Positions 11,524 to 58,693 of a DNA stretch of 64,000 bases are shown piece by piece (the stretch's first letter is position 1; each line of letters begins with the position of its first letter). The notes beneath the pieces are model-generated. The model did no database searches. It saw nothing but the letters and a program-made list of their open reading frames with translations, and was not told the DNA's origin. Source of the DNA: an uncultured bacterium (GTDB lineage Bacteria > Cyanobacteriota > Vampirovibrionia > Gastranaerophilales > Gastranaerophilaceae); assembly GCA_947073645.1 (NCBI GenBank), contig CAMTMK010000001.1, positions 1-64,000 on the forward strand, in the 5' to 3' direction. The translations under genes and the position numbers were made by a program.

Positions 11524-12297
11524 TTACCAATATAGTAAATTTTGCCAACGATTTTCAACTTCTTCAAAAGAAAGATGCAAATAATCCATATTGCGATGTT
11601 TTATAATCCAAGAACCGCAGCTAAGCCCCATTCTATCTGCACTATCGTGAATATTACATTCACTTGCAGTATCTTGCCAAGCATAAGGAGCTAAACGTTC
11701 TTTCGCCAACCCGAAAACAAATTGATCTTTCCCTAAAGTATTAGGTCCTTTTTTGCCATTAGTATCAAGCCAGAAAAAAGAATGATGAGTCGCGTTTGCA
11801 CCGCCAAATGTTATACATTCTCCCGACATAAGAGCTACTGTCGGAGTATGACGTACTAATTCCGCACTTTTGCCAACCTTATTACCATTCAAATAATAAC
11901 TCGTATCAGGCATACAGTTTCGAGCTTTACTGTCTAAGAATTCCGAACTTATCTTCAAATATGGTTTAAATGTATTATATAAAAACTCATTGTCATAACT
12001 CCCAACCTTAAATTTTCCATTTTCATATCCAGACTTTACTCCCTCCCAACTCTCAACAGGCCCTAATTCATTTAATGAAAGTTTGTATGCATTCTCTAAA
12101 ATTGAATAAACGCGTAAATAGGATGTAATCCATACTTTCTCATTATATTTTTGAACTAAAGACGGAATAGTCATCGCCGCAACTACACCAATAATTCCCA
12201 GAGTAATTAAAACCTCTGCCAAAGTAAAAGCCAAACGCACAGGAGTTAAACTATGAGTGCCCCCCCCCCGATAATTTCGATTAAATACTATTTTCAT
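11524..12297 (-). CDS. Type IV prepilin-like protein A, in frame through a G10 tract (phase ON)
   Basis: 257 residues from an ATG with a perfect AAAGGAGG site 5 bases upstream. The leader is MKIVFNRNYRGGGTHSLTPV, whose GGG is encoded by a run of ten G (12269-12260). The prepilin-peptidase motif then follows: AFTLAEVLITLGIIGVVAAM with the conserved glutamate at +5. Later family marks are DTNGKKGPNTLGKDQF and the C-terminal NMDYLH. With nine or eleven G the frame closes within a few codons, so expression should switch with tract length. Probably a pseudopilin or surface pilin. Terminator shared with the gene on the other strand. Confidence 0.85.
   Translation of the reverse strand: MKIVFNRNYRGGGTHSLTPVRLAFTLAEVLITLGIIGVVAAMTIPSLVQKYNEKVWITSYLRVYSILENAYKLSLNELGPVESWEGVKSGYENGKFKVGSYDNEFLYNTFKPYLKISSEFLDSKARNCMPDTSYYLNGNKVGKSAELVRHTPTVALMSGECITFGGANATHHSFFWLDTNGKKGPNTLGKDQFVFGLAKERLAPYAWQDTASECNIHDSADRMGLSCGSWIIKHRNMDYLHLSFEEVENRWQNLLYW
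12260..12269. repeat. Homopolymer tract, ten G on the coding strand (prepilin A)
   Basis: Ten consecutive C on the plus strand, preceded by GAGTG and located 8-11 codons after the start of prepilin A. It is in frame at this length. Similar tracts are at 26530-26539 and 58663-58672. Confidence 0.9.
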
Positions 12298-25170: not shown

Positions 25171-26493
25171 ATGACAAAAAAAGTTTATATAGAAACAATG
25201 GGATGCCAGATGAACAAATCAGATACCGAAAGAATGCTCGGTATGCTATCCCACTTTGACTATGAAGAAACAAAAGTACAGGAAGAAGCAGACTTGTTAA
25301 TGGTTAACACCTGCTCAATAAGACAGCTTTCGGAAGATAAAGCTTTCAGTCAGCTTGGAGTTTGGGGCAAGTGGAAAAAGAACAGAGATATTAAAATAGG
25401 CATCTGCGGATGCGTTGCACAACAAAAAGCAAGAAAAGTTTTTTCTCGTGCACCATATGTAGATTTCGTTCTCGGAACTCATAAAATCTACTCGCTTCCC
25501 GAAATTATAAAAAGAATTAATGAAGGCGAAAGGGTTTGTGAATGTGAAGAAACAAATCTTCCATCATCAAATGAAGAAGGTTTTCCGATTAACCGCGTAA
25601 AATCAACAAACGCATGGATTAATATTACAGAAGGCTGCAACAACTTCTGCACATATTGTATCGTTCCTTACACAAGAGGCAGAGAACGCTCACGTGAACC
25701 CGAAGTAATTATTAAAGAAGTTAAAGATGCGCTTAATGCAGGCTTCAAAGAGATTACACTCCTCGGTCAAAATGTAGACAGTTACGGCAAAGATTTTAAA
25801 GACAAACAATACCGCCTTGCACAATTACTACGCGACATCAATGCAATTGAAGGAAAGTTCAGAATACGTTTCGTAACATCATATCCGACTGATATTACTG
25901 ATGAACTTATTGAAACAGCAGTAGAACTTGACAAAGTTTGTGAATATTTTCATATTCCGATGCAATCAGGAAGTTCAAGAGTTCTAAAAGCAATGAACAG
26001 ACGTTATGACAGAGAAACTTATGCAAAAATCGTGGAAAAAGTCCGCAGAATGGTTCCTGACGTTACAATTACAAGCGACTTTATTGCAGGCTTCCCCGGC
26101 GAAACAGAAGAGGAATTTGTAGAAACTCTGACTGCAATCGACGAATTTGAACTGGATTACTCAAACGTTGCCGCTTATTCTCCGCGCGAAAAAACAGTTG
26201 CGGCAAAATGGGTTGATAAATTTATACCCGAAGATATTAAAGATGAAAGATTTCAACGATTGAACCTGAAAGTTCAGGAAAACTGCTTGAAATCAAATCT
26301 TAAATATGTAGGACGCGAAATGGAAGTTCTTGTTGAAAACTTCTATGAACACAAAGGCAAAATGATTAATACCGGAAAAACAAGGAATTTTAAAACAGTT
26401 CACATTCCTTGCGACGAAGATTTAACCGGACAATTCATAAACGTAAAAATATCAGGCGCAAAAACTTGGTATTTAAAAGGTGAAATAATATAG
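25171..26493 (+). CDS. miaB: tRNA-2-methylthio-N6-dimethylallyladenosine synthase
   Basis: 440 residues, a methylthiotransferase. The N-terminal UPF0004 domain carries cluster cysteines C12, C48 and C81; the radical-SAM motif CNNFCTYC has C156, C160 and C163; a C-terminal TRAM domain (~378-440) binds RNA. The sequence TEGCNNFCTYCIVPYTRGRE and the absence of a lysine-rich MtaB-type pattern fit MiaB. It adds a methylthio group to adenosine 37 of tRNAs. The ribosome site is AAAGGGAAG, and a TATAAT lies ~25 bases upstream. A prepilin gene follows by 10 bases. Confidence 0.95.
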   Translation: MTKKVYIETMGCQMNKSDTERMLGMLSHFDYEETKVQEEADLLMVNTCSIRQLSEDKAFSQLGVWGKWKKNRDIKIGICGCVAQQKARKVFSRAPYVDFVLGTHKIYSLPEIIKRINEGERVCECEETNLPSSNEEGFPINRVKSTNAWINITEGCNNFCTYCIVPYTRGRERSREPEVIIKEVKDALNAGFKEITLLGQNVDSYGKDFKDKQYRLAQLLRDINAIEGKFRIRFVTSYPTDITDELIETAVELDKVCEYFHIPMQSGSSRVLKAMNRRYDRETYAKIVEKVRRMVPDVTITSDFIAGFPGETEEEFVETLTAIDEFELDYSNVAAYSPREKTVAAKWVDKFIPEDIKDERFQRLNLKVQENCLKSNLKYVGREMEVLVENFYEHKGKMINTGKTRNFKTVHIPCDEDLTGQFINVKISGAKTWYLKGEII

Positions 26494-26503
26494 GAGGTAA
26501 TAT

Positions 26504-27399
26504 ATGTTTAAAATTAATACTCAGAGTTGCCCCCCCCCCAACAGAATCCGCTAGTAGCAAGCGACTTAAGGAGCTTTTACAAAATCTGTGTGGTGAGTCA
26601 AGCAGCACGCTTGGCTTTTACACTTGCTGAGGTTCTTATTACCTTAGGGGTTATCGGGGTAATTGCAGCAATTACAATGCCGACACTTATCGGTAATCAT
26701 CGTGAAAAAGTTACTGTCACACGCTTAACACATACATACAGCCTGCTCTCACAAGCAATTGAACGTATGATAGAAGACCAGGGTGAAACTATTCAATATT
26801 GGGGAAGTGATGCTGCCACAAGACGTGCAAAATTTGAAGAACTTTTACCAAAATATGTTGAAATAATAAAAAAATGTGAAAAAATGGAAAAAGGCTGTAT
26901 TTCTCCAACTAATTATACACCCGGAGTTATAGGAGCACCAGCCGGAGTTTGGATTACAGGAAGAACAACTCTAGCAAACAGTTATCTGTTAAAAAATGGG
27001 GTAGGAATAAAAGTAAATAAAGGAGGAACATGTCAGCAAGACACAACCTTACAAAAGAAAGGATGTTCAGAATTTAACCTTAACTGTAACCCAAACGAGG
27101 CAACACTTAACTATGGCACTTATCAACATAATTGCATTGGATTATTTGTTGACATTAATGGTCCAGCAGGTCCTAACAAAACAGACATTGATTATTTTGA
27201 ATTCTCTATAGTACAAAATGGGATTGTACCAAGTGGTTCTTCAAAAGAAACTATTTGGACAGAAAAATTTGATAATTGTATAAAATATAACCGGTACAAC
27301 AATTGCAAATGCACAGCCTGGGTTATTTATAACAAAAATATGGATTACCTCAAATGTCCTGACAAACTCGGCTGGAACAAAGCTTCAAGCTGTAAATAA
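26504..27399 (+). CDS. Type IV prepilin-like protein B, out of frame at a C10 tract (phase OFF)
   Basis: An ideal TAGGAGG site precedes the ATG at 26504. From there the frame reads MFKINTQSCPPPNRIR and stops at 26552. The prepilin frame, open from about 26527, encodes AFTLAEVLITLGVIGVIAAI, then the family marks DINGPAGPNKTDIDYFEF and NMDYLK near the C-terminus. Adding one C or removing two to the run at 26530-26539 joins start and prepilin frame into a ~298-residue protein. A phase-OFF gene, frameshift mutation or homopolymer read error are the alternatives. Mature part ~255 residues with six or more cysteines. Confidence 0.8.
26530..26539. repeat. Homopolymer tract, ten C on the coding strand (prepilin B)
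   Basis: Ten C, preceded by GAGTTG, nine codons after the start. Length is taken from the reading frame of the downstream protein. Relative to the gene, this tract is inverted compared with the tracts in prepilins A and C. Confidence 0.85.
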
Positions 27400-27457
27400 T
27401 ACAAGACAGATAAAATTTTACAAAACACATATATCTACGTGCGTAGCACAAAAAAAT

Positions 27458-27490
27458 GGCTGAATTTTTCAATTCAGCCTATATTTTTTT
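27458..27490 (+). terminator. Prepilin B terminator
   Basis: GGCTGAATT-TTTC-AATTCAGCC followed by TATATTTTTTTT. Confidence 0.88.
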
Positions 27491-57950: not shown

Positions 57951-58693
57951 TTTACCGCATTTAGTCTGAGTTGCCCAATCTAAATTACAGTGGAGATAAT
58001 CCATGTTTTCATTTTTCAAAATCCAATTCGCACAACCTCTTGCCTGAGTACTACTATTAAAACTGCATGCTTTTTGAGCATTTGCAGTTGTGGAATCAAA
58101 CTCTAAAGGCTTTATTCTTTGAAAGGCAGTTTCTTTATAATTATTTAGTTCTGTATGCATATTCATTTCAAAGAAAAAAGTATCATATCCATAATGATTT
58201 GGCGGTTTGGGACCATTAACATCTACTCTTATTCTTACAGCACCATTATAATCTGAAAAAACTTGAATTAAAGTCCCGTCTTTAAGTATTATAGCGTTGT
58301 TGTACCCCCAAAAATCATTTCCCCTTTTTTCTAAAAAATTATAGTAATATCTTCGAGACGGAACACAAAATGTTTTTGCTTCATCGCACTTGACGGTTAT
58401 ATCCAAATAAGGGCTAATTTTATTTAAAAACTCAATAGGTGATATTGCAACTCTGGTTGCAGTATCAGCTAAAACAAAATTATAACCGTATTCTTCTTGA
58501 GCCATTCTATATGCATTTTGCAAAACGGAATAAGTTTTTTTAAGCTGTATAACAGTTGCTCTTTCTTTGTGACGCTGAACAACATCTGGTAAAACAAGTG
58601 ACGCAACAACCCCAATAACCCCTAAAGTAATTAATACTTCCGCTAAAGTAAAGCCTAGAGTGCCCCCCCCCCGACATTCCAACTATATTTCAT
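57948..58693 (-). CDS. Type IV prepilin-like protein C, out of frame at a G10 tract (phase OFF)
   Basis: GGAGG stands 5 bases before the ATG at 58693. From there the frame reads MKYSWNVGGGAL and hits TAG just after the run of ten G (58672-58663). The prepilin frame encodes GFTLAEVLITLGVIGVVASL, then DVNGPKPPNHYGYDTFFFEM and the C-terminal NMDYLH. An in-frame TAG just upstream means it has no proper start of its own, only a TTG at 58682 without a ribosome site. One extra G (or two fewer) restores MKYSWNVGGGGTLGFTLAEV. Phase-OFF state is inferred. Sequencing error in the run is possible. Confidence 0.8.
58663..58672. repeat. Homopolymer tract, ten G on the coding strand (prepilin C)
   Basis: Ten C on the plus strand, preceded by GAGTG as at the prepilin A tract. 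Eight codons after the ATG. Out of frame at this length. Confidence 0.9.

Follow-up and report, generated by a model that had tools for sequence, protein, structure and literature searches.

The gene for prepilin B, which follows miaB in the window (the whole stretch of 64,000 nucleotides analysed here), is split between two reading frames by a run of ten C residues, and dozens of prepilin genes of the same host, a member of Candidatus Gastranaerophilales with a genome of 1.71 Mb and 35% G+C, are built alike. Slipped-strand translational phase variation with a default-OFF register is probably the best reading of these prepilin tracts, as judged from the sequences. Specifically, prepilin B would be one of at least about 50 host prepilins whose leader is broken by a hypermutable G/C homopolymer of around ten bases, and the gain or loss of bases by strand slippage during replication would switch each of these genes. 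In the putative OFF state, the default at 10 in most prepilins, a short peptide would end just past the tract, while the full prepilin would be made in the ON state, at 8, 11 or 14. The cells of one population would then display differing small subsets of a large pilin repertoire. We infer from this a high rate of tract slippage and the lack of prepilin B in OFF cells. The frame arrangement, the default-OFF register, coding across the tract, a flank motif at the DNA level and G on the leading strand are the traits that the sequences themselves present.

The features of the locus are collected in Table 1. The first-pass annotation had followed TAGGAGG and the ATG at 26504 through the C10 run to a stop at 26552, and this proved exact at base level; it had also placed the prepilin in another frame, to be fused by a change in tract length, and we confirmed that the frame of mature prepilin B is -1 relative to that of the ATG, 8, 11 or 14 C being needed for fusion. 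The locus thereby fits the layout of a homopolymer contingency gene, with a run of at least 8 near the 5' end of the ORF and a one-base change that joins or breaks the frame. The protein scored 17.5 bits against TIGR02532 (prepilin N-terminal cleavage/methylation domain), above the curated cut-off of 16.3, and 14.1 against Pfam N_methyl, under the cut-off of 21.2. The predicted mature domain has a long N-terminal helix in a low-confidence model (mean pLDDT 64.5), with which Foldseek returned weak matches throughout, the pilin 1ay2 among them at E 1.7. The orthologue in a sister species (G010, 75-76% identity) also carries C10 and is OFF. Loci of other species hold no prepilin B between miaB and the hairpin region (L075, L077, L083, L089, L091), and single prepilin genes, to judge from such loci, come and go as whole units. 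We also observed a leader element, AAGCGTAGCCGCTTGACCCGCCACATTGGGTTTTG..., of about 40-55 bases, which lies between tract and mature prepilin in either orientation and is in frame both ways (forward copies in L011, L019 and L033; inverted copies in L015 and L059).

Table 1. Sequence features of the prepilin B locus and the other two tracts, in window coordinates
Feature	Position	Strand	Basis
miaB ORF	25171-26493		ORF list
Shine-Dalgarno TAGGAGG; its TAG is the miaB stop codon	26491..26497	+	sequence
Stretch holding prepilin B, not present beside miaB at the corresponding site of five congeners	26494..27402	+	locus comparison
Putative OFF-state short leader ORF, ATG 26504 to TAG 26552-26554, peptide MFKINTQSCPPPNRIR*	26504..26554	+	sequence
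3' flank of the G-strand motif, CAACTCTGAG, common to other tracts	26520..26529	-	flank comparison
C10 tract (G10 on the minus strand); predicted ON lengths 8, 11, 14	26530..26539	+	sequence
Extended leader segment, inverted copy (by eye) of the AAGCGTAGCCGCTTGACCCGCCACATTGGGTTTTG leader element of the genome's other prepilins	26580..26615	+	
Two in-frame GTG codons, sole plausible downstream start; judged unlikely	26590..26595	+	
Mature prepilin B, FTLAEV to stop, starting FTLAEVLITLGVIG... / FTLAEVLITLGVIGVIAAITMPTL...	26617..27399	+	ORF list, profile match
Terminator-like hairpin 3' of prepilin B	27458..27479	+	
G10 of another prepilin, in frame (ON) at 10, MKIVFNRNYRGGGTHSLTPVRLAFTLAEVL...	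12260..12269	-	sequence
G10 of another prepilin, out of frame, ON at 8/11	58663..58672	-	sequence

The window holds three G or C runs of at least 7, each of exactly 10 bases, against no C10 or G10 in 100 dinucleotide-preserving shuffles. The earlier statement that prepilin B is "also" out of frame stands for prepilin B itself and for the tract at 58663, and fails for the one at 12260, which is in frame at its present length. The contrast that had been pointed out on the coding strand, C in prepilin B and G in the other two, was confirmed; it arises because all three tracts are G on the minus strand. In the entire host genome we counted 67 G/C runs of 8-12 bases (8: four; 9: nine; 10: forty-two; 11: ten; 12: two), at least 53 of which sit in prepilin genes, past a start with a ribosome-binding site and ahead of FTLAEVL; the 53 tract-bearing prepilins comprise 31 G-coding and 22 C-coding genes. 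The tracts were studied on the sequence stretches surrounding them. Of the genus's 33 genomes, the majority carry 20 to 176 runs of at least 9, and the other families of the order mostly 0 to 6. Tract-poor congeners yielded 9 and 17 prepilins, compared with 52 in G012 by the same search, and their prepilin leaders are ordinary and short (MKKIFG/FTLSEL, MKYRG/FTLAEV). Other Gastranaerophilales MAGs (L323-L361) share this design but differ in length and flank, the tract mode being G9 and the flanks C-G9-CGWCTCCTCTAAGTAG. Assembly breakage at tracts, a possible sign of mixed lengths, was sought at 20 contig ends of the window's genome and none was found; two contigs of G010 start at or near similar tracts.

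By the sequence evidence, tract orientation tracks the replication fork and not the gene, with G on the G-rich leading strand. In the window's genome, 31 pairs of neighbouring prepilins include 1 in which the strand of the tract changes and 16 in which that of the gene does; over five genomes, adjacent tracts on one contig showed 9 strand changes in 225 pairs (P about 1e-52 versus coin tossing). The flips fall at GC-skew extrema, that is at replichore boundaries, and G is therefore placed on the leading strand. Specifically, the flip at 259.6-297.9 kb in G010 encloses the cumulative GC skew minimum (about 265-280 kb), and that at 758-823 kb in G019 encloses the maximum (about 775 kb). Agreement is less sharp in G026, and G006 is an exception to the polarity rule, with T-flanked runs on mixed strands. 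The assignment was taken from GC skew because dnaA, which we dropped as an origin marker, was not located at the polarity flips. The dnaA genes (G000:C3:42516, G010:C4:41581, G019:C11:508290) lie far from the GC-skew extrema, so they do not mark the origin. As a separate observation, the G runs of G006 (L247, L253, L256, L265) are T- or A-flanked and mostly outside prepilins, unlike those of its relatives. The minus strand, carrying the G10 of the prepilin B tract, would thus be the leading strand, and prepilin B is C-rich on its coding strand because the gene is encoded opposite the local leading strand.

The bases around the tracts belong to the G strand as well. Their consensus on that strand is TC-G10-CA..CT.AGC, with C at -1 in 54, C at +1 in 59, A at +2 in 51 and T at +4 in 53 of the 67 tracts; prepilin B has GTT-G10 at the 5' side, with T at -1, as in 11 of the 67, in place of the commoner TC-G10. 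A flank profile trained on G-coding genes gave a mean score of +12 on its training genes. With C-coding genes it reached +6.2 on their G strand and fell to -17.7 on their coding strand; tracts lying outside prepilins scored +2.4 (median +8.3), compared with -14.7 for random positions. The proposal that the run, and not a coded peptide, is conserved is borne out indirectly by the two scores of the C-coding genes. Since the flanks follow the G strand, the peptide encoded by the same DNA differs with orientation (GGGT... or PPP...). In addition, a pair of homologous prepilins from two species, 64% identical, differs in its tracts (G11 and C10) and has unrelated leaders.

Slippage alone leaves the leading-strand polarity and the conserved C...C flanks unexplained. 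Tentatively, and with rather less than even confidence, we suggest that G10 and its C-flanked motif form a DNA element specific to one strand, which some activity coupled to replication, either a dedicated protein or fork-directed slippage, places or maintains; G may be kept on the leading strand for useful slippage behaviour or for the stability of that orientation. The tracts might be mainly DNA elements read at the fork, in binding, nicking, recombination or gene conversion between prepilins, with switching as a secondary effect. The strict polarity and the strand-specific flanks, both kept regardless of gene direction and type, are in line with this proposal, as are the homologous pair with opposite tracts and the gain or loss of whole prepilin genes at their sites. 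Its model would be the gonococcal pilE G4 (PMC3547852), likewise a G-rich element beside a pilin gene whose orientation matters. The pilE element, however, is an upstream G4 of four runs with an sRNA promoter and drives gene conversion, while each leader here holds a single G10. Moreover, the tract lies inside a coding leader with a consistent register, it is found also in non-prepilin genes (the L018 type, GT-D and hexapeptide genes), and no protein or recombination product has been identified for such a role. We regard a chiefly DNA-level function as unlikely, although it could coexist with frame switching.

Frame switching is the reading to which the registers point. Among 126 prepilins with a mapped start, from five species, 90 are one base short (71%), 24 are in frame (19%) and 12 are one base long (10%), so that both ON and OFF lengths (24 and 102 genes, respectively) occur among relatives. 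Compared with one third, the binomial P is 4e-4 for ON and 3e-18 for the -1 phase, values obtained on genes related by descent and so not independent; the ON share is below the third expected of neutral drift. In-frame prepilins that share the register of prepilin B have 11 bases in 13 genes and 8 in one, two of the lengths that the first-pass annotation had named for in-frame homologues; C11 is the tract of four C-oriented in-frame prepilins (L052, L062, L266, L269), and one pair of orthologues at 91% identity has C9 in one member and C10 in the other. Where the register is unlike that of prepilin B (20 genes), 10 are in frame, 4 are one base long and 6 one base short: length is held near 10 and the -1 phase is not. 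At the commonest length, 10, prepilins appear to be OFF and non-prepilin genes such as two enzymes, a GT-D glycosyltransferase (L054) and a hexapeptide transferase (L055), appear to be ON; as these two are in frame at 10, the assembled length is believable. A non-prepilin gene of unknown family (L018, L177, L201, L202), about 70% identical across four species, reads ATG...G10...early stop, its ORF being in the -1 frame.

The -1 phase at length 10 is so common that a constitutive re-framing device is conceivable, and this is the main rival within the frame-switch reading. Ribosomes would slip by -1 on C CCC CCC or G GGG GGG, or RNA polymerase would add a base, and length-10 genes would make a constitutive low level of prepilin. 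Exactly such a shift is what the 90 one-base-short prepilins need, the L018-type gene keeps the -1 arrangement across its four species, and a slippery heptamer of the X XXY YYZ form, C CCC CCC, is present inside C10. The device is weakened, on the other hand, by the altered registers, of which 6 in 20 are at -1, by RNA structure downstream of the prepilin B tract that is no more than chance (z -0.70), and by the published absence of transcriptional slippage at G or C runs of E. coli and Buchnera (PMC5574713). It is also silent on the leading-strand polarity, and we consider it improbable.

On the evidence of the reading frames, translation of the prepilin family must cross the tract. From the tract to FTLAEV, the 2,541 codons of the prepilin frame include 4 stops, all in one odd gene, compared with 299 and 194 stops in the other two frames. 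FTLAEV begins at most 13 nt past the tract in 23 genes; among the 79 long-leader genes, an in-frame start accompanied by an SD-like tetramer is present in only 6, and 22 lack any start codon. A start downstream of the tract, which had been named as the finding that would refute the frame-switch reading, is contradicted at the family level by these counts of stops and start codons; no alternative start bypasses the tract in the family, and the weak GTG pair is what is left for prepilin B.

Initiation of prepilin B at the GTG at 26590 or 26593 (MSQAARLA/FTLAEVL), the short ORF then being a regulatory or spurious leader, would yield a normal prepilin leader of 8-9 residues. V, L or M stands at the matching place in some homologues, and in one species the leader itself contains TATAAT followed by an ATG. 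Nevertheless, the pair is without a well-placed SD, the nearest SD-like sequence, AAGGAG at 26568-26573, being about 17-20 nt off; many family members offer no room or no codon for such a start, as counted above, and the interval is kept coding in the prepilin frame right up to the tract. This makes a downstream start highly unlikely. The leaders with TATAAT belong to many prepilins of G026 (L119, L121, L122, L135, L139), where six bases separate it from the ATG (TGTTATAATAGTGATATGAAA); this may be a promoter within the leader, with leaderless initiation, or merely the conserved peptide CYNSDM.

As regards the origin of the tracts, insertion as a fixed sequence was rejected, no clean empty site being found for the tract itself: tractless orthologues are often equal in length, with GGTAGTGGGG or AGTAACGGGT in place of the G10 of L060, and AGAGGGACAGGA in L055. 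Tracts therefore arise or decay partly by substitution. A MutS_I domain occurs in all but one genome of the genus, and the instability is therefore not attributed to lost mismatch repair. Growth of the runs purely by substitution, at the GnT hotspot that turns T into G after G runs, would act on the leading strand only; in Pseudomonas and Salmonella the hotspot shows a strong specificity for that strand (PMC12344412), and T follows just 4 of the 67 tracts. The two processes are alike in their leading-strand dependence, but the traces that the hotspot predicts are absent here. In 610 kb from five species, the leading strand shows no surplus of G3-G6 beyond what GC skew accounts for, T after leading-strand G3-G5 is undepleted (40-48% T), and runs of 7 or 8 are absent; at +1, A and T are equally rare, which means that C is positively favoured. 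We give very little credence to this route. Least credible of all is an assembly or homopolymer-calling artefact, or a pseudogene, since even though the sequence is a MAG consensus and G runs are error-prone in sequencing, the arrangement recurs in many species that were assembled independently, the frame is held at 10 in the in-frame genes L055 and L060, and the ORFs past the tract are intact, at 210-280 residues, in nearly all genes.

Homopolymer phase variation of surface genes is already well known. The closest tested precedent, by analogy, is that of the sortase pili of Bifidobacterium breve (bbr_0113 and bbr_1889), in which an intragenic G-tract forms a switch driven by replication slippage (PMC9187656). 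As here, the organism is a gut commensal, an ORF with the upstream start and a pilin ORF lie in different frames, a change in the G-tract joins them, and the genes were assembled OFF. Unlike the two sortase-pilus loci of B. breve, the present set comprises dozens of prepilins with an N-terminus of the type IV/type II class, both tract orientations, replication-strand polarity and conserved flanks. The contingency loci of Campylobacter and Helicobacter resemble it in having tens of poly-G tracts per genome, a peak at 9-10 and frame-based ON/OFF states (PMC6321876). In Campylobacter, however, ORF tracts have G on the coding strand and only 5% are poly-C (PhasomeIt, PMC6321876), whereas orientation in the host depends on the fork and prepilin B bears its C10 on the coding strand. 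We found no open paper linking the order Gastranaerophilales with phase variation. As far as the literature searched shows, what is new is the scale within one prepilin family of the order, and the replication-strand polarity with its strand-specific flanks.

In conclusion, our data point, for a gut bacterial order as yet uncultured, to a large pilin repertoire that is a candidate for phase variation, and suggest that homopolymer switches can be organised by the direction of replication. The cause of tract orientation, tract length and switching rate can now be tested directly, one genome with both coding orientations supplying natural controls. If the replication-coupled reading is true, pilin switches would be tuned genome-wide by the direction of the fork rather than that of the gene, and genes that change strand would acquire the opposite coding tract.
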